From contig JAUYMU010000112.1 of the NCBI GenBank assembly GCA_030698405.1, forward strand, positions 1-64,000: DNA of 64,000 nucleotides, in the 5' to 3' direction. Below the pieces are notes generated by a model. That model was not told where the DNA came from and ran no database searches. It saw only the letters and a program-made list of their open reading frames with translations. Of this stretch, positions 1 through 44,134 are shown piece after piece (the first letter of the stretch is position 1; every line of letters begins with the position of its first letter). Made by a program: the position numbers and the translations under genes. This DNA is from Bacteroidota bacterium (GTDB taxonomy: Bacteria; Bacteroidota; Bacteroidia; Bacteroidales; Prolixibacteraceae).

Positions 1-240
1 GCACCGGATTTAAACTGATAAAAAAAATCTGCGGCAATCTGCGTTTGAAAATCCGTGTTATCAGCGTTCCATTCTTTTTTTTCTTGCGTTCATTTGGTTT
101 TTATATTGTAAAGATACAATTGGCACGCGGATAACGCTGATGCTGCGCAACGCGGATTTAAACTGATAAAAAAAATCCGTTTTATCTGCGTTTGAAAATC
201 CGTGTCATCCGCGTTCCATTATGCCTGGAAACAACCCCTG
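1..240. repeat. Interspersed repeat, two direct copies downstream of hsdS
   Basis: Two near-identical blocks of about 69 bp lie at 5-73 and 153-220. Each runs from CGGATTTAAACTGATAAA to GCGTTCCATT, at a period of 148 bp. Between them, 122-160 holds a stretch reading GATGCTGCGCAACGCGGATT, which returns in inverted orientation in the repeats at 1422-1683. This word family (cgcggat, gcgttatccgcg) resembles intergenic repeats seen in many Bacteroidota genomes (general knowledge, not searched). The end of hsdS lies inside copy 2, so the last residues of HsdS (MERG, then stop) are encoded by repeat sequence. No gene is visible in 1-204. Confidence 0.8.
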
Positions 241-1434
241 CATCAACCCTTTTTTATGCGTTTTCAGCGCATCGAGTTTTTGGCTTTGTGCTGCAATCAA
301 CTCGTCGAGGGAAGAAAGACAATCGGCAATTTTTTGTTGTTCAGGAAGGTGCGGGATAAACAGATTCAACTTTGAAATATCATCTTTTGTAAAACCTTTA
401 ATAGCCATTCCTTGACTATATTTAAGAAGAGTTTTACTATGTGATTTCAGAATATAAGCTAAAAACATCAGATTGTCTATATCTGGAGTGAAGTTTGTAA
501 AATCTTGGCTTGTACACACAGGTTGCTTTGTAATTGCCAACTTACCAACGCCCACGCGGGAGACTATTAAGATACTGTTTTCAGGAACCAATTTTGTCGC
601 TGAATCTTTTAACGCTTCTTCAGTAATAAATCTGCTGATTTTTATTTGATGAATTGAATCTTCGAAAATGTCGGAACTAGAAACCCAAGGGATACTTCCT
701 TTCCAAAAAGAATCATTGGCTTTGCTTGGTGTTCCTCCTCCGGTAAATTCACCTAAATTTCCAAGTTGTTTCTCCTCCCACTCCCCATCATCCCGAAACT
801 CCGCAAACCTTAACTTCGGCACGCGTGCTGAGCCTGTAAAAGCATCATCTTCGGCGGGGAACAACTGCTGCATCAGGCCTTTTTTATGGACTTTAAGTGT
901 GTCAAGTTTTTGGCTTTGGGCAATAATTAACTCGTCAATGGAAGAAAGGCAGGTGGCGATTTTCTGCTGTTCTTTCTCTTTACCAGGAATTGAAATATCG
1001 ACCTTTTCTAGGTTTTCAACTGAAAGACCAGGTTGCGCTTGCCCTGTAGCGTACTGATTCAGATTTAAATTAATTAGCATATAAAAAAGCCAGTCAGTAT
1101 CCACATCTACTTTGGGCGTAACTACTACTGCATGTTCAGTTGCATGGAATTTGTCAGTTGCAAATGTTATATTCCCGCATAAAGCACCTTGGCGTCCAAT
1201 AAGAGAATATTTTCCTGTGTGAGTGTTTGACTTTGTATATCCTCGTAATCCATTGCCGCCATAACAAGGAAATAAATCGTCCTTTTTATTCTCACTTATT
1301 TCGGAAGCACTGACAAATTTGCCAGCATGCATTTGACAAACATTTTTTAGTTGCTTTTTCTTCCATGCCTCCGTATCCCGAAACTCAGGAAACCTCAACT
1401 TAGGCACTATCTTATTGATTGTTTGTTTATTCAT
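205..1434 (-). CDS. hsdS: Type I restriction-modification specificity subunit HsdS
   Basis: HsdS is the DNA-recognition subunit of a type I restriction-modification enzyme. The 409-residue protein has the classic two half-repeats. Each starts with a similar segment (KLRFPEFRD near residue 13, KLRFAEFRD near residue 208) followed by a target-recognition domain. Each ends in a conserved helical spacer (EQQKIATCLSSIDELI and EQQKIADCLSSLDELI, then THKKGLMQ). The two recognition domains differ, as expected for a bipartite target. The ATG at 1434 sits inside the 131-bp tandem repeat, and the stop sits inside the left-hand repeat. hsdR lies upstream on the same strand with a rhuM remnant between. 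No hsdM is visible, so it should lie left of position 1 or elsewhere. Family assignment is secure; the target sequence cannot be read. Confidence 0.95.
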   Translation of the reverse strand: MNKQTINKIVPKLRFPEFRDTEAWKKKQLKNVCQMHAGKFVSASEISENKKDDLFPCYGGNGLRGYTKSNTHTGKYSLIGRQGALCGNITFATDKFHATEHAVVVTPKVDVDTDWLFYMLINLNLNQYATGQAQPGLSVENLEKVDISIPGKEKEQQKIATCLSSIDELIIAQSQKLDTLKVHKKGLMQQLFPAEDDAFTGSARVPKLRFAEFRDDGEWEEKQLGNLGEFTGGGTPSKANDSFWKGSIPWVSSSDIFEDSIHQIKISRFITEEALKDSATKLVPENSILIVSRVGVGKLAITKQPVCTSQDFTNFTPDIDNLMFLAYILKSHSKTLLKYSQGMAIKGFTKDDISKLNLFIPHLPEQQKIADCLSSLDELIAAQSQKLDALKTHKKGLMQGLFPGIMERG

Positions 1435-1683
1435 CGTTTATTGTTGTAAAAATTGGTACGCTGATAACGCTGATTTTCAAGCGCTGATAATACGGATTTT
1501 TTAATCCGCGTAAATCCGCGTTGCGCAGCATCCGTGTTATCCGTGTCCCATCTTTGTTTATTCATCGTTTATTCTTGTAAAAATTGGTACGCGGATAACG
1601 CTGATTTTCAAGCGCTGATAATACGGATTTTTTAATCCGCGTAAATCCGCGTTGCGCAGCATCCGTGTTATCCGTGTTCTATC
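1422..1683. repeat. 131-bp tandem duplication covering the hsdS start region
   Basis: Two head-to-tail units, 1422-1552 and 1553-1683, are almost identical. Each begins TTTGTTTATTCATCGTTTAT and contains AATCCGCGTTGCGCAGCATC. A third, partial unit start (tttgtttgttcat) follows at 1684. The first unit contains the ATG and first codons of hsdS, so the duplication created extra decoy starts on the minus strand that read MNKQ and soon stop. The core is an inverted version of the repeat at 122-160, so hsdS lies between inverted repeats. Confidence 0.85.
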
Positions 1684-1891
1684 TTTGTTTGTTCATAGAA
1701 TTCGTAAGCATCAAATACTTGTCCGTCAAAAAACACACCTTGATTAGGGCATGCTTTCCAATGGTTTTAATATCTCTGCCAAACAAAACAGCCAACTGCT
1801 GACGATTCAACCAAACAGTTTCTTCCTCTATCCTTACCTCAATTCGTTCAGGTAGTTCGTTTGATTGATATAGCACTATTTCGTTCTTCAT
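1679..1891 (-). pseudogene. RhuM-family remnant with internal deletion and frameshift
   Basis: The frame opens like a RhuM-family protein: it starts MKNEIVLYQS and reaches LNRQQLAVLFGRDIKTIGKH by residue 47. RhuM genes commonly sit between type I restriction genes. A complete RhuM protein is roughly 300 residues or more, but this one stops after 70. After the GKH the original frame is lost. Reading one base over in 1690-1745 gives QGVFFDGQVFDAYEF, which is the later FFDGQVFDAY motif of the same family. So about 200 codons appear to be missing and the join is out of frame. The stop falls in the third partial copy of the tandem repeat, which suggests the repeat took part in the deletion (inference). 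Confidence 0.8.
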
Positions 1892-1915
1892 ATTGTGTTT
1901 TTTAATTCAACCACT

Positions 1916-4882
1916 TTATTCATACGCTGTTAATCCTGAAATTTCACGTCCCTGGGCTAATTTTTTTAATAGTGGAACCAGATCTTCCATCAAGGCCAGT
2001 TCCTTTTGTGTCCGGGCTTTCCAGCCCAACTCTAAGGGCGCCAGTAAATCGCTCAATTGTTCACCGTCGAAAATCATCCGGTTCATAATACCATCTACAA
2101 AGCGTTGCAGTGCAGCCGTTTCAATCCCGTATTTTTCGGCTGTTGCAGCCAGTTCTTTGGCCGATTTTTCAGCTTTAAATGTTTGGTAGCCTTCATGAAT
2201 TTCTGTTTCAGTTAAGCTTTTGCCAGTCTGTAAATTATTGATGTAGGCCACAATGTCGTCGCGTTCTTCCATCAGGTTTGCGCTTGAACTAAGCAGGTTA
2301 ATGAGCTGCTCGCGCGACATTTTTTGCTTCGATGGTTTGTTCTGGGTGTATTTGGCAATCAACCCCATAATATAGTCGTAATCGATCACCGACGAGGCAA
2401 AAAGTACAAATTCAAAATCCAGTTGTTGCACATCGGGCGGGGCATCGTTCCCCTCTTTGTCCTGCCTTGCTTTCAGGCGTTTGGCAGTTTCAAGGTACGA
2501 ACTTCGAAATGAACGCAATTGGTCTTCAGGCAATAGCAGTTCAATTTTGTCTTTGTGTCCTTCACTCAAATCGGTGTATTGGTCGAGCTGTGTTTTCAGC
2601 CTTTGCACTTCTTTAAACCGGTTGATAAATTCGATTCGGGCTGTATCGCCTTTCAGATTGTAAACTGCCTGAGGCTCACAAACCAAATCACTTTCGTGCA
2701 TGAAAATATTGAGGGCAGCCACCGCTTTTTCATAATTGGCAATCACCACAGGCGCCGGGTCAACCAACCATATTTCTTTGGCCCTGCTGGTATCTTCACC
2801 CGAAAACAAGGCGATTGCTTCGTCAACCGCGTCTTGTTGCTGCCTGAAATCGAGGATGTTGCCATAAGGTTTGGTGTCGTTCAAAATGCGGTTGGTGCGC
2901 GAAAAAGCCTGAATTAACCCGTGGTATTTGAGGTTCTTGTCCACATACATGGTATTCAGGTATTTGGAGTCGAAACCCGTGAGCAGCATATCCACTACAA
3001 TCATCAAATCAATTTTGTTGGCGTGCGCGTAGTCGGTATTGGTGTATTTCTGGTCTTTTATGCGTTGCTGCACATCCTGGTAATACAGGTCGAATTCGTT
3101 AATGCTGTGGTTGGTTTTGTACTGTTTGTTGTAACCGGCAATGATGGCTTTCAGCGCCTTTTTCTTTTCCTCGGGCGCCTGTTCGTTGTCGGCTTTTTCC
3201 TGTGGCAGGTCCTCCTGAATTTGCTGTACATCTTTGTTGCCTTCCGCAGGTGGAGAAAATACGCAGGCAATGTTTAACGGCTGGAAGCTCTCATTTTCTG
3301 ATTGTCGCCGGGCCTGAATGTCATTGAATAAATTGTAATATTCGATGGCGCTGTTAATGGAGGAGGTCGCCAGAACAGCATTAAAGCGGCGCGAATGAGT
3401 GGCCGCATCGTGTTTGGTCAGTATCGCTTCAGCCACTGCTTGCTGTGCGATGGCTTCACCGGGTTTGGGTATCGCTTTACCTTCGCCCTTGAAATAGTCG
3501 ATGTGAAAACGCAGCACATTTCGGTCTTCAATGGCGTGGGTAATGGTGTAAGCGTGTAATTGTTTCTGAAAGATGTCTTCGGTGGTTTTATACGATGCCT
3601 GCTGTCCCTCAATCATTTGGTAAGTGGCATTGTCGTCAAAAATAGGCGTGCCGGTAAATCCAAAGAGCTGCGCGTTGGGGAAGAACTCTTTAATCGCCTT
3701 GTGGTTTTCGCCAAACTGAGAGCGGTGGCATTCGTCGAAGATAAACACAACGCGCTTGTTGCTAAGCGGCTGCAACCGTTCCTTGTAGTTTTTCTTATAG
3801 GTAGGATCGAGCGCAATGCCCAGCTTTTGAATGGTAGTGACAATTACTTTGTCGGCATAATCATCGGACAACATTCGCCTGACCAGGGTTTCGGTATTGG
3901 TATTTTCCTCCACGCAACCTTCCTGAAATTTATTAAACTCTTCGCGGGTTTGACGGTCCAGGTCTTTACGGTCAACCACAAACAGGCATTTTTCAATGTC
4001 AGGATTGTCTTTTAGCAAGGTGGAAGCTTTGAACGAAGTCAGGGTTTTGCCGCTTCCTGTGGTATGCCAGATGTAACCATTGCCCCGGTTCTGGTGAATG
4101 CAGTCAACAATCGCTTTTACAGCATAAATCTGGTACGGGCGCATCACCAGCAATTTTTGTTCGCTGGCCACAAGTACCATGTAACGGCTGATCATTTCGC
4201 CCAGGGTGCATTTGGCCAGAAACTTTTCAGCAAAGTTGTCCAGATGGGTGATTTTCCGGTTGTCTTCGCTGGCTAACTGATAAATGGGTAAAAACTGTTC
4301 GTCGGCATTAAAGCTGAAATGCTGATTTTGGTTGTTTGCAAAGTAGTACGTATTGGCGCGGTTGCTGACGATGAAAAGTTGCATGAAACACAACAGCGTA
4401 TTGGCGTAACCGTTGCCGGGAACGTTTTTGTAATCGACGATTTGTTGCATGGCACGCCGCGGACTAACATCCAGCGCCTTAAGCTCAATTTGTACAACTG
4501 GCACGCCGTTAATCAGCAGAATTACATCGTAACGGTGGTGACTGTTATTCGTATTTATCCGCAACTGGTTGATGACTTCAAATTCGTTTTTGCACCAGTC
4601 TTTTATATTTACCAGTGTGTATTGTAGTGATGAGCCATCCTCGCGTTGAAAAGTATTTCGTTCGCGTAAGTTTTTGGAAGCGGTAAATACATCGGCGTTT
4701 ACAATCTCATCGCGCAAACGACTGAATTCCGAATCGGTTAAATTGACGCGGTTAAGCGCTTCGAATTTCTTTCGAAAGTTAAGTTCAAGTGTATCTCTGT
4801 CACGGATATCGGGTCGCCACGTGTATTTCAGATCGCTTAGCTTTCCGATCAGGCTTTCTTCTATTTGGTTTTCTTTGGTCAT
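1916..4882 (-). CDS. hsdR: Type I restriction enzyme R subunit (HsdR)
   Basis: This 988-residue protein is the DNA translocase and nuclease subunit of a type I restriction enzyme. The N-terminal nuclease core shows D119 and an ELK (E133, K135), the PD-(D/E)xK pattern. The SF2 helicase part follows with Walker A TTGSGKT at 274-280, DECH at 383-386, the motif GFTGTPIF, and later MLLTGFDSKYLNTMYVDK. Length is normal and no disruption is visible. It is the first gene of a minus-strand run hsdR - rhuM remnant - hsdS. Restriction would need a partner HsdM, which is not in the window. Confidence 0.96.
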   Translation of the reverse strand: MTKENQIEESLIGKLSDLKYTWRPDIRDRDTLELNFRKKFEALNRVNLTDSEFSRLRDEIVNADVFTASKNLRERNTFQREDGSSLQYTLVNIKDWCKNEFEVINQLRINTNNSHHRYDVILLINGVPVVQIELKALDVSPRRAMQQIVDYKNVPGNGYANTLLCFMQLFIVSNRANTYYFANNQNQHFSFNADEQFLPIYQLASEDNRKITHLDNFAEKFLAKCTLGEMISRYMVLVASEQKLLVMRPYQIYAVKAIVDCIHQNRGNGYIWHTTGSGKTLTSFKASTLLKDNPDIEKCLFVVDRKDLDRQTREEFNKFQEGCVEENTNTETLVRRMLSDDYADKVIVTTIQKLGIALDPTYKKNYKERLQPLSNKRVVFIFDECHRSQFGENHKAIKEFFPNAQLFGFTGTPIFDDNATYQMIEGQQASYKTTEDIFQKQLHAYTITHAIEDRNVLRFHIDYFKGEGKAIPKPGEAIAQQAVAEAILTKHDAATHSRRFNAVLATSSINSAIEYYNLFNDIQARRQSENESFQPLNIACVFSPPAEGNKDVQQIQEDLPQEKADNEQAPEEKKKALKAIIAGYNKQYKTNHSINEFDLYYQDVQQRIKDQKYTNTDYAHANKIDLMIVVDMLLTGFDSKYLNTMYVDKNLKYHGLIQAFSRTNRILNDTKPYGNILDFRQQQDAVDEAIALFSGEDTSRAKEIWLVDPAPVVIANYEKAVAALNIFMHESDLVCEPQAVYNLKGDTARIEFINRFKEVQRLKTQLDQYTDLSEGHKDKIELLLPEDQLRSFRSSYLETAKRLKARQDKEGNDAPPDVQQLDFEFVLFASSVIDYDYIMGLIAKYTQNKPSKQKMSREQLINLLSSSANLMEERDDIVAYINNLQTGKSLTETEIHEGYQTFKAEKSAKELAATAEKYGIETAALQRFVDGIMNRMIFDGEQLSDLLAPLELGWKARTQKELALMEDLVPLLKKLAQGREISGLTAYE

Positions 4883-38508: not shown

Positions 38509-38700
38509 CTACCGGTTAAACTTCAACCTTTTGCCCTGAATTCCTGAAACAACATTTCCATCAGCATAAACCAAGTTGCCATTTACAAAAGTATGGGTTA
38601 CCTGGTGCGAGAATTCTGTTCCATAGAAAGGCGACCAGCCGCACTTGTAAAGTATATTTTCAGGAGAAACCACCCACGATTGTGCCGGATCAACCAACAC
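38509..38700 (-). pseudogene. 3' fragment of dihydroorotase gene
   Basis: This encodes the last 63 residues of the dihydroorotase found at 40091-41434 ([20 protein letters not shown] ... [11 protein letters not shown]), identical except one residue (Y for D in SPFYGTEF). It lacks the catalytic part. An ATG from the repeat boundary exists, but there is no sign that this fragment is a functional gene. Confidence 0.85.
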
Positions 38701-39965: not shown

Positions 39966-40284
39966 TGCAAGAGGGTAACCTTTTCCCTTTTCCCGGAATT
40001 AATTACTCAGGGCTTGTTGCATGAAAAACAAAAAGGATTCCACCTCCCCAGAGATGAAATCCTTTTACGTTCTATTTTAAGATAAATTTTCTACCGGTTA
40101 AACTTCAACCTTTTGCCCTGAATTCCTGAAACAACATTTCCATCAGCATAAACCAAGTTGCCATTTACAAAAGTATGGGTTACCTGGTGCGAGAATTCTG
40201 TTCCATCGAAGGGCGACCAGCCGCACTTGTAAAGTATATTTTCAGGAGAAACCACCCACGATTGCGCCGGATCAACCAATACCA
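39966..40284. repeat. Original copy of the duplicated pyrC 3' region
   Basis: This is the counterpart of 38066-38700. It includes the last 64 codons of dihydroorotase, its stop, the terminator hairpin and about 65 bp beyond. The MITE present in the other copy is absent here, so this copy shows the uninterrupted sequence. Confidence 0.85.
40026..40066 (-). terminator. Rho-independent terminator of pyrC
   Basis: The minus-strand stem AAAAGGATT pairs with AATCCTTTT, followed by T-rich sequence, 25-65 bp after the pyrC stop. A second copy of the same hairpin lies in the duplicated region near 38450-38486. Confidence 0.75.
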
Positions 40285-41434
40285 AATCAGCATAATATCC
40301 TTCGCGGATGTATCCACGACGATCGATTCGGAACAGGTCTGCCGGGGCGTGGCACATTTTTTCAATCACTTTTTCGACCGGAATCATTCCTTTCCGGCTC
40401 ATTTCGAGCATGGCTACCAGCGAATGCTGCACCAGCGGCCCACCGGCTGGCGCTTTGAAATACGAATGTTCTTTTTCCTGAAGGGTGTGCGGGGCATGAT
40501 CGGTAGCCACCACATCAATTTTATCGTCAAGTAAAGCTTTCCAAAGTGCAGCTTTATCTGCAGGCGATTTAATAGCAGGGTTCCATTTTATAAAGTTACC
40601 ATGTGCAATGTAGTCGCTTTCGTCGAACCACAGATGGTGCACGCAAACTTCAGCAGTAATGAGCTTTTCAGCAACTGGTCCCGAAGCAAAAAGTTTCATT
40701 TCATCGGCAGTTGAAATGTGCAAAACATGCAGCCTTGTTCCATATTTAGAAGCCAGCGCAACAGCTTTTGACGACGATTTGAAACAGGCTTCGGCGCTTC
40801 TGATTTTAGGATGCGCAGAAATTGGCACATAATCGCCGTATTTTTCGCGGTAAATGGTAGTATTCAGGATAATTGTCGGTTCGTCTTCGCAATGCGTAGC
40901 GACCAGCAATTTGGTATTTTTAAATATTTCTGAAAGCACTTCTTCATTGTCAACCAGCATATTTCCGGTTGACGAACCCATGAATATTTTTATTCCGCAA
41001 ACATCTGAACCATTTGTTTTCAGCACTTCGTCCAGATTGTCGTTGGTGGCGCCCATGTAAAACGAATAGTTGGCAGCCGAAACTTCAGCAGCGCGCTGGT
41101 ATTTCAGTTCGAGTATTTCTTGGGTTACTGCCTGCGGATTGGTGTTGGGCATTTCCATGTACGAAGTCACTCCACCGGCAACGGCAGCCCTCGATTCGGT
41201 AGCAATTTCGCCTTTGTGGGTCAGCCCCGGTTCGCGAAAATGAACCTGATCGTCGATGGCTCCCGGAACCAGGTATTTGCCATTTGCATCGATCACTTTT
41301 GCTCCCAGAGCGAATTCAGCAGGAATATCTTCACCGGAGAAAACTTTGGCAATCAATTCTCCATCAATCAGCACAGCTCCGCTAAAAATCTGTCCTTCAT
41401 TGATGATCCGGGCATTTTTAATGAGTGTCTTCAT
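40091..41434 (-). CDS. pyrC: Dihydroorotase
   Basis: This 447-residue zinc-dependent amidohydrolase catalyses the third step of pyrimidine synthesis, cyclising carbamoyl aspartate to dihydroorotate. It shows the DHOase motif region DDQVHFREPG near 60, where the first ligand position that is His in many family members (DxHVHxR) is Gln. I recall the same DDQ form in other Bacteroidota enzymes. Further motifs are VGGVTSYMEMPNTNPQ (approximate), EVCVHHLWFDESDY and the metal-binding VATDHAPHT. The start ATG is at 41434. It follows a glycosyltransferase gene by 12 bp on the same strand, so both form an operon. Its 3' end is duplicated at 38427-38700. Confidence 0.94.
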   Translation of the reverse strand: MKTLIKNARIINEGQIFSGAVLIDGELIAKVFSGEDIPAEFALGAKVIDANGKYLVPGAIDDQVHFREPGLTHKGEIATESRAAVAGGVTSYMEMPNTNPQAVTQEILELKYQRAAEVSAANYSFYMGATNDNLDEVLKTNGSDVCGIKIFMGSSTGNMLVDNEEVLSEIFKNTKLLVATHCEDEPTIILNTTIYREKYGDYVPISAHPKIRSAEACFKSSSKAVALASKYGTRLHVLHISTADEMKLFASGPVAEKLITAEVCVHHLWFDESDYIAHGNFIKWNPAIKSPADKAALWKALLDDKIDVVATDHAPHTLQEKEHSYFKAPAGGPLVQHSLVAMLEMSRKGMIPVEKVIEKMCHAPADLFRIDRRGYIREGYYADLVLVDPAQSWVVSPENILYKCGWSPFDGTEFSHQVTHTFVNGNLVYADGNVVSGIQGKRLKFNR

Positions 41435-42425: not shown

Positions 42426-43175
42426 ATGCAATCAAACTGGCCTGTTTTAAATTCACCTCCAGTAATATTGGCAATATTTCAGCTTAAATTCGCTTCTTCA
42501 GATGATCGTGAGTTAAGCAAAATGATTGCTAATGACAAGGTTATTAAATTAATGTTTCCTATCCGGTCTGACAATTATCATTCTGATATTGATGTTCATG
42601 GTACACCAGCTCCGGGTATATCTACTCTAAGTGCTAAGGCTAATACGAAAATTAGCTCTTACATTTACTTTTCTCAAGACAAAGAGAGAAAGTTAATAAT
42701 TGAAAAGGACAGTGTGATCTTCATCAGCGAAAGTGCATATTCAGGTTGGGATTCTTTTAAGAAGGAAGTTCAAGAAAGTATTACTATGCTCGTGGGGCAA
42801 TTGGAGGATCGTTATATTGAAAGAACATCAATTCGATTTGTAAATAAATTTTCTCTTGATTCATTTGAGGATCCTTTAGATTATTTTACGAAGATGATTT
42901 CTACAGAATCTGAGGCGATATACCCTTTAGTGAAATATGCATTTCGAATAAATATTCACGTTCCAGACTCAAATATTAGGGCAATCATCAATAATGCACT
43001 AGAACCAAACGGAACAGATAGTTACGATTATTATCTGGACATTGATGTTCTAGATGATAGTCAGCTTAAATTTGACTTGCTTCTAATATCTAAACATATG
43101 GAACAAATTAGGGAAGTGAAAAACAAAATATTTTTTGACACGGTAAAACCTAAAACGTTAGCATTATGCAACTAA
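42426..43175 (+). CDS. TIGR04255-family protein (cassette gene 1)
   Basis: The 249-residue protein matches the sporadic TIGR04255 family by its opening (LNSPPVILAIFQLKF), IYFSQDKERKLIIEKDSVIF, the YIERTSIRFVNKF segment near 140 and the closing region. The function of that family is unknown. It has no signal peptide or membrane segment, so it is cytoplasmic. It starts at ATG 42426 (a GTG one codon earlier is also open) and overlaps the next gene by 10 bp. Coding overlap with two further small genes suggests a tightly coupled three-gene unit. Such sporadic families often travel in defence or toxin-antitoxin islands (general knowledge; untested here). Confidence 0.7.
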   Translation: MQSNWPVLNSPPVILAIFQLKFASSDDRELSKMIANDKVIKLMFPIRSDNYHSDIDVHGTPAPGISTLSAKANTKISSYIYFSQDKERKLIIEKDSVIFISESAYSGWDSFKKEVQESITMLVGQLEDRYIERTSIRFVNKFSLDSFEDPLDYFTKMISTESEAIYPLVKYAFRINIHVPDSNIRAIINNALEPNGTDSYDYYLDIDVLDDSQLKFDLLLISKHMEQIREVKNKIFFDTVKPKTLALCN

Positions 43176-43618
43176 ATAACATTAAAACCAGGAAATTAAT
43201 TCCTTTGACCATCTCTGGCGGAATAATAGTTTCAGCATTTGCATTCTCGTATGGTTCTCTAGACGGAAGCGTAATAGATAATGTTATTTCGAGTTCGTCC
43301 ATTAGTAATATTATTCAACACACCGATGATAAAATTTATTCTCATTTTTCAGTTAAATCTCGCTTTGACCAAAGATTCACAGCATGGAAGAAGAATACAA
43401 TGTTTATGTCATTTGCTGAACAAATAGTTAATGATAAAAATTTTCAAGATATAGTTTCGATGGGTGAAGATGTGGTTCCATTTATTTTGGAAGAGATAAC
43501 AAGAGAACCGTCTCCATTGGTTTGGTCATTGAATTTAATATTCAATAAAACTATATCAAATAATCCTGCCACAACTATCGAACAAGCTTGCAAGTTATGG
43601 GTGAAAATGTTGAGTTAA
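43166..43618 (+). CDS. Membrane-anchored protein of unknown function (cassette gene 2)
   Basis: I do not recognise this 150-residue protein. Residues 10-30 (RKLIPLTISGGIIVSAFAFSY) form one hydrophobic segment near the N-terminus, which could be an uncleaved anchor with the rest outside, or a signal. A helical domain follows (about 60-150) with DQRFTAWKKNTMFMSFAEQI and the closing stretch MGEDVVPFILEEI, ending WVKMLS. Its ATG lies inside gene 1 (10-bp overlap) and gene 3 starts 22 bp before its stop, so the order is fixed and translation is probably coupled. Confidence 0.6.
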   Translation: MQLNNIKTRKLIPLTISGGIIVSAFAFSYGSLDGSVIDNVISSSSISNIIQHTDDKIYSHFSVKSRFDQRFTAWKKNTMFMSFAEQIVNDKNFQDIVSMGEDVVPFILEEITREPSPLVWSLNLIFNKTISNNPATTIEQACKLWVKMLS

Positions 43619-44076
43619 TCAAAGCACAGGCTTTCGAAACATTTCCTGGGCTCTCAAATGATGATAACTTCAACATTACAAGCAGTAAGGACATTAAGTA
43701 CAATTGTATTGCATGGGCTTTTGGTCTGTATAAAGATAGGTGGATGCAATTTGATACCAAACCACGTTTTGATGGTGTTTGGTATTGGTGGACGAAAGGT
43801 GTTGAAGTAAGCCCAAGTGTTTTTGCATATATCGAAGCTTTTAAATCAAGAGGATTTGAACTCTGTGAATCTTGTGATTTTGAAGCTGGGTTTATTAAAA
43901 TTGCACTTTACGTTGAAAGGGGAACTGAAAAATGTACTCATGCATCTCGCCAGAAATTGAACGGAATCTGGATGAGTAAACTTGGCAGCTGGCATGATAT
44001 TGAACATGGAACGCCATTTTCTATTCAAGGTGATGCTTACGGAGATGTTTACTGTTTTATGAAATTGGCCCGATAG
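43597..44076 (+). CDS. DUF7689-like protein (cassette gene 3)
   Basis: The 159-residue protein matches what I recall of the DUF7689 family: the KYNCIAWAFG motif (Cys37), a Trp-rich VWYWWTKGVE, and C-terminal KCTHASRQ (His115) and SWHDIEHG (His133, His137). A conserved Cys near the start and His further on suggest a papain/NlpC-type thiol enzyme or a transglutaminase-like fold, but this is inference from spacing only. It starts at ATG 43597, inside gene 2. An earlier in-frame TTG at 43588 is possible. No signal peptide. Confidence 0.65.
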   Translation: MGENVELIKAQAFETFPGLSNDDNFNITSSKDIKYNCIAWAFGLYKDRWMQFDTKPRFDGVWYWWTKGVEVSPSVFAYIEAFKSRGFELCESCDFEAGFIKIALYVERGTEKCTHASRQKLNGIWMSKLGSWHDIEHGTPFSIQGDAYGDVYCFMKLAR

Positions 44077-44134
44077 TTTATTTCATTTAGAAAATCGTAA
44101 TAATTCAGTTGTCAATAATTCTAATAATTCCTAT

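Follow-up and report, generated by a model that had tools for sequence, protein, structure and literature searches.

Three co-directional and overlapping genes in a 64,000-nucleotide stretch of DNA from a Bacteroidota bacterium of the Prolixibacteraceae (GenBank assembly GCA_030698405.1, contig JAUYMU010000112.1, positions 1 to 64,000; hereafter the window) look like a tripartite toxin-antitoxin (TA)-like module, probably with an anti-phage role. The module would consist of a likely cysteine-hydrolase effector (gene 3, DUF7689), its dedicated partner protein (gene 2) and a widespread protein of the TIGR04255 family (gene 1), which we found in front of many different TA-like pairs, sometimes inside prophages and restriction-modification (RM) loci. 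We give this reading a probability of roughly 0.55; toxicity, neutralization and the role of the third component are inferred from sequence and predicted structure alone.

The original prediction described three small genes overlapping by 10 and 22 bp, and this observation is confirmed. Gene 1 and gene 3 score well above the cut-offs of their respective families, whereas gene 2 has no credible family match in the libraries searched (Table 1). The trio is real coding sequence: gene 2 is conserved at 97–99% in two other species of the genus and the operon is conserved across phyla. Its GC content (34.4%, against 40.3% for the window) is low, and its GC3 (0.28–0.30) is below that of six of seven neighbouring genes tested (0.41–0.46; the seventh has 0.28), which suggests horizontal acquisition. 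The distribution is very sporadic: within 101 relatives, gene 2 occurs in only four genomes and PF24738 in seven, and PF24738 was found in 12 of 396 genomes of the phylum.

Table 1. Features of the three-gene locus and other window features mentioned in the text (positions refer to the window).
Position	Strand	Feature	Basis
42426–43175	+	Gene 1, TIGR04255 family protein (249 aa); predicted beta-rich, barrel-like fold with C-terminal helix; shared third component of TA-like operons	NCBIfam TIGR04255, 79.9 bits (curated cut-off 30), E 2.5e-22; AF2 model pLDDT 92.4, pTM 0.88
43166–43618	+	Gene 2, proposed antitoxin/partner protein (150 aa)	ORF; position directly upstream of gene 3
43166–43321	+	Gene 2 N-terminal tag region (about aa 1–52), hydrophobic in this lineage; proposed TIGR04255-recognition module (inferred)	Extension lengths and tag profile
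43322–43615	+	Gene 2 C-terminal helical domain (~95 aa), divergent member of the 'W..T...S...Y..II.mG..viP.IL..L....WFwAL..ItgedPv' family; proposed partner-binding domain	Two alignments; AF2 helical domain in a relative (L037)
43597–44076	+	Gene 3, DUF7689 protein (159 aa); predicted NlpC/P60 papain-like hydrolase; proposed effector/toxin	PF24738, 101.4 bits (gathering cut-off 22.6), E 6.9e-29; AF2 model of a relative (L037), pLDDT 91.9
43705–43707	+	Codon of invariant Cys37 (proposed nucleophile)	Invariant in two alignments
43939–43941	+	Codon of invariant His115 (proposed catalytic base)	Invariant in two alignments
43996–44007	+	Codons Asp134-Ile135-Glu136-His137; Asp134 and His137 invariant (third catalytic residue candidates)	Invariant in two alignments
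205–4882		Type I RM specificity and R subunits, at the window edge
38509–38700		63-aa ORF near-identical to the C-terminal end of the dihydroorotase-like gene
40091–41434		Dihydroorotase-like gene

We first examined how strictly the three genes occur together. A scan of genome contigs with gene 3 (the best 80 of 229 loci were kept) and a scan of viral contigs (13 loci) showed that a gene-2-family ORF lies directly upstream of gene 3 in 80/80 and 13/13 cases, usually overlapping it. The scan pattern was anchored on the Cys motif and so favours intact gene 3. A second survey of 199 Planctomycetota genomes found gene 2 in seven and gene 3 in eight, with seven shared (hypergeometric p 4e-12, including two genomes that had served as seeds), and all ten gene-2 places adjoin gene 3. 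Such a conserved two-gene pairing with the partner upstream is that of type II TA systems. One 282-aa ORF (locus L217) carries DUF7689 followed by a gene-2-like domain. The window gene 2 is a divergent member of its family: its C-terminal half keeps the conserved W, T, S, G and P positions but not the WFWALK core. However, at least one intact gene 3 is solitary (locus L016). TIGR04255 completes the trio in 43 distinct loci across many phyla, but is absent from about half of the gene-2/gene-3 pairs. NCBIfam confirmed 39 of 47 scanned upstream proteins, the window protein included, as TIGR04255, and a 4-bp overlap with gene 2 is the commonest spacing. Pairwise distances of the three genes correlate over the 43 trio loci (Mantel r 0.70–0.81, p 0.0002; r 0.55–0.72 among distant pairs), as expected of a unit that travels together.

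We then focused on the wider company of TIGR04255, which the original prediction had missed. The family was found in 7/148, 14/100 and 23/149 genomes of three phyla (44 of 397 in total; each set includes at least one seed genome). The two genes downstream fall into many classes: (i) gene 2 with DUF7689; (ii) a 'NWDGYGA' gene 2 with several gene-3 families; (iii) known or likely toxins, i.e. PIN in four operons, zeta toxin, HEPN and HicA-like (one weak hit); and (iv) a 'TQDCDL/SNTCDI' class. A Vibrio plasmid record annotates a zeta toxin in the same position. Among plasmid copies of TIGR04255 (L195, L196 and L197), L196 (Thermus) has a HEPN-like gene two downstream and a VapBC pair just upstream, near cas6. 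The genome studied here has a second TIGR04255 operon of the fourth class (L122/L234, contig C138, 78178–78870), with a 103-aa hydrophobic-N-terminus gene and a 207-aa 'SNTCDI' protein of unknown family. Models of the PADLOC phage defence candidate PDC-M32 (PDC-M32A/B) match gene 2 and gene 3 of a sister class of TIGR04255 operons. By contrast, no PDC-M32 model matches any of the three window proteins, and the TIGR04255 proteins tried matched no PADLOC model.

The N-terminus of gene 2 appears to be modular. When TIGR04255 is present the N-terminal extension is never shorter than 28 aa (0/45), while 13/51 are shorter without it (Fisher p 1.4e-4); the length of the N-terminus as a whole does not differ by TIGR04255 status (Mann–Whitney p 0.15), only the absence of short forms does. 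Without TIGR04255 the N-terminus can instead be an antitoxin domain: Pfam hits in the scanned set of gene-2 and upstream-gene proteins include Phd/YefM (2), RHH and a bacterial DNA-binding domain, and DUF104-like forms are seen by eye. The window gene 2 contains no such domain and has the TIGR04255-type extension. A tag profile built from TIGR04255-linked gene 2s scores above 2 on all seven members of an unrelated gene-2 class (the NWDGYGA class paired with a 'P.HA.I.GWP' gene 3), on 0/28 gene 2s without TIGR04255 and on 2.4% of shuffles. The tag similarity is convincing for only these two gene-2 families; other TIGR04255 operons have unrelated or hydrophobic N-termini. Similar N-terminal swapping is seen by eye in a PIN-associated antitoxin family, while a comparison of HicB-like partners with and without TIGR04255 gave no result for lack of relatives. 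In some loci without TIGR04255 (L102, L107, L095, L111 and L114, L116), two other small families (about 90 aa and 125 aa) precede gene 2 and may be functional replacements.

Structure prediction yielded a confident model of TIGR04255 but no confident fold match. In a Foldseek search of the PDB the best match is weak (E 1.8e-3, probability 0.44; none with E ≤ 0.001), the hits being low-TM matches to Mediator, triphosphate-tunnel and helix-grip folds. SecB is not among the top 50 listed and there is no sequence match, so that a SecB-like fold is not supported. Gene 2 and gene 3 were modelled as one read-through product of L037, a relative in which they lie in the same frame (pTM 0.71 for the whole product). 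Gene 3 of this model resembles mostly NlpC/P60 and other papain-like proteins (e.g. 2hbw, 2k1g Spr and 7v6s), with a Cys at a helix N-terminus and a His in the following sheet, although the fold scores are only weak (E 0.038 or worse, probability up to 0.82), the model is of the relative rather than of the window protein, and no sequence match to solved structures was found. Cys, His, Asp and His are invariant in 57 sequences, equivalent to window Cys37, His115, Asp134 and His137. No signal peptide was seen in the operon versions. Weak similarities of gene 2 to BrxA (PADLOC, E 0.006) and of gene 1 to DUF4292, LolB and XrtF (E 0.02–0.05, below cut-offs) were judged to be due to chance.

Gene decay and genomic context were also analysed. 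Gene 3 is broken while gene 2 is intact in genome G007 (a deletion at about 43750–44122) and in loci L021, L216 and L219, whereas the reverse was not found; this asymmetry rests on a small sample (4 v 0, p 0.06) and is only indirect evidence that gene 3 is toxic alone and neutralized by gene 2. Remnant gene 3s in three same-phylum genomes (L018–L020) lack gene 2 and have lost the Cys region and the His. The nearest relatives of the window gene 1 (38–43% identity) are in viral contigs: in L109 the trio lies between a terminase large subunit and a portal gene. In L115 (23% gene-1 identity) the trio lies upstream of a head-maturation protease, and in L114 gene 2 and gene 3 lie beside a terminase. 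By contrast, searches of sequenced plasmids and phages did not find gene 3, and the window gene 1 was not found in phages. Type I RM specificity subunits are immediate neighbours in four loci (L039, L055, L059 and L065), with an hsdR-like gene upstream of the trio in L039 and L055, giving an hsdR-trio-hsdS order. In the window itself, type I RM subunits lie about 38 kb from the trio.

Taken together, what the analysis establishes is the operon structure, the nearly invariant pairing of gene 2 with gene 3, the sharing of TIGR04255 as first gene of many such pairs, the modular N-termini and the predicted folds of the parts; toxicity, catalysis, neutralization, tag binding, any chaperone activity and a phage trigger are inferences. 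In this view, gene 3 would be a cytosolic NlpC/P60-like cysteine hydrolase (Cys37-His115 plus Asp134/His137), harmful when free and acting on an as yet unidentified target. Gene 2, translated first and coupled by overlap, would neutralize it through its conserved C-terminal helical domain. TIGR04255 would bind the N-terminal tag of gene 2 and stabilize, position or sense for it. When gene 1 is titrated or lost (e.g. in phage infection), gene 2 would fail and gene 3 would act on the host cell.

The closest described counterparts are the toxin-antitoxin-chaperone (TAC) systems, i.e. HigBA, HicAB and MqsRA with a SecB-like chaperone (PMC5105189, PMC6377645) and CmdTAC (PMC11618068). These also have three genes, one third-component family shared by several unrelated TA families, and an antitoxin with an extra tag region that TA pairs without the third component lack or replace. 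Here, however, the tag is N-terminal rather than C-terminal, TIGR04255 is the first gene, and it would be analogous to, but not homologous with, SecB. Type II TA pairs (VapBC/PIN, HicAB, zeta and Phd-type) share the small overlapping pair with the partner upstream, swappable N-terminal antitoxin DNA-binding domains and sporadic distribution; they differ in that the effector here is DUF7689/NlpC-P60-like, for which we know of no described TA toxin family, and in the third gene present in about half of the pairs.

A broader possibility, which we regard as tentative, is that TIGR04255 is a previously unrecognized, non-SecB third component of TA systems, plugged onto several effector types (PIN, HEPN, zeta, HicA-like, DUF7689/NlpC-P60 and several unknown ones) through an N-terminal addiction tag on the antitoxin. 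It would then be a general switch of prophage- and island-borne defence, and DUF7689 would be a new cysteine-hydrolase toxin family. No paper in the literature library searched mentions TIGR04255 or DUF7689. If TIGR04255 is the common handle of many TA-like pairs, one family explains a large set of unknown operons and gives a rule for finding new toxins, namely to read the two genes downstream; it would also show that chaperone- or adaptor-addiction of antitoxins evolved more than once.

The interpretation in the original prediction, a defence or TA-like operon with an anchored partner and a candidate enzyme, is partly supported. Its two preset conditions for rejection, i.e. no conserved co-occurrence of the three families or a gene-3 fold without a plausible active site, were both examined and neither applies: co-occurrence is conserved and the predicted papain-like fold has a plausible Cys-His active site. 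The TA/defence-like layout is likewise supported by phage and RM neighbours. Of the residues it named, Cys37, His115 and His137 are invariant in relatives, while His133 is not (Asp134 is invariant instead) and is not supported as a catalytic residue.

Alternatively, though unlikely on present evidence, the locus could be a sensor–effector anti-phage system, in which TIGR04255 or gene 2 senses a phage product and activates the gene 3 hydrolase, gene 2 being an activator or adaptor rather than an antitoxin. This is consistent with the phage and type I RM neighbourhoods, and also with the fusion of gene 2 and gene 3 in one ORF and with DUF7689 proteins of Bacteroidota that look secreted and have a weak gene-2-like match, both of which are odd for a neutralizer. 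However, TIGR04255 also precedes classic TA toxins, and gene 2 carries typical antitoxin N-terminal domains in some loci without TIGR04255. Less likely still is a protein-modification or processing operon without a toxic role, in which gene 3 would be a deamidase/peptidase acting on a specific host protein, gene 2 a substrate-recognition subunit and TIGR04255 a regulator. The predicted fold with its intact active site, and the persistence of the gene 2–gene 3 pair without TIGR04255, would fit this view, but the very sporadic distribution, low GC, mobile and prophage contexts and the association of TIGR04255 with toxins speak against it. The membrane-anchored version of the original prediction, with gene 2 as an inner-membrane partner, is the least likely, because, although the window gene 2 has one moderately hydrophobic N-terminal stretch (best 19-residue Kyte–Doolittle mean 1.69) and some other TIGR04255 operons also have hydrophobic gene-2 N-termini (e.g. 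L151, L156 and L171), the stretch falls in the tag region, only 3 of 43 trio loci have a TM-like segment in gene 2, and L151, L156 and L171 continue, by eye, into HTH/XRE-like regions.

The DUF7689 fold is not always that of a TA toxin, as indicated by the solitary L016 and by proteins that look secreted. The genome studied here encodes an ~810-aa protein (L008, contig C39, 105212–105589) with a signal peptide-like start (by eye), a DUF7689 domain and a weak gene-2-like domain, and the next ORF also scores weakly for gene 2. Similar proteins occur in L004 and L009, and the protein is possibly a T9SS-exported relative. Upstream of the trio in the window, the C-terminal end of the dihydroorotase-like gene appears to be repeated as a separate short ORF (Table 1).
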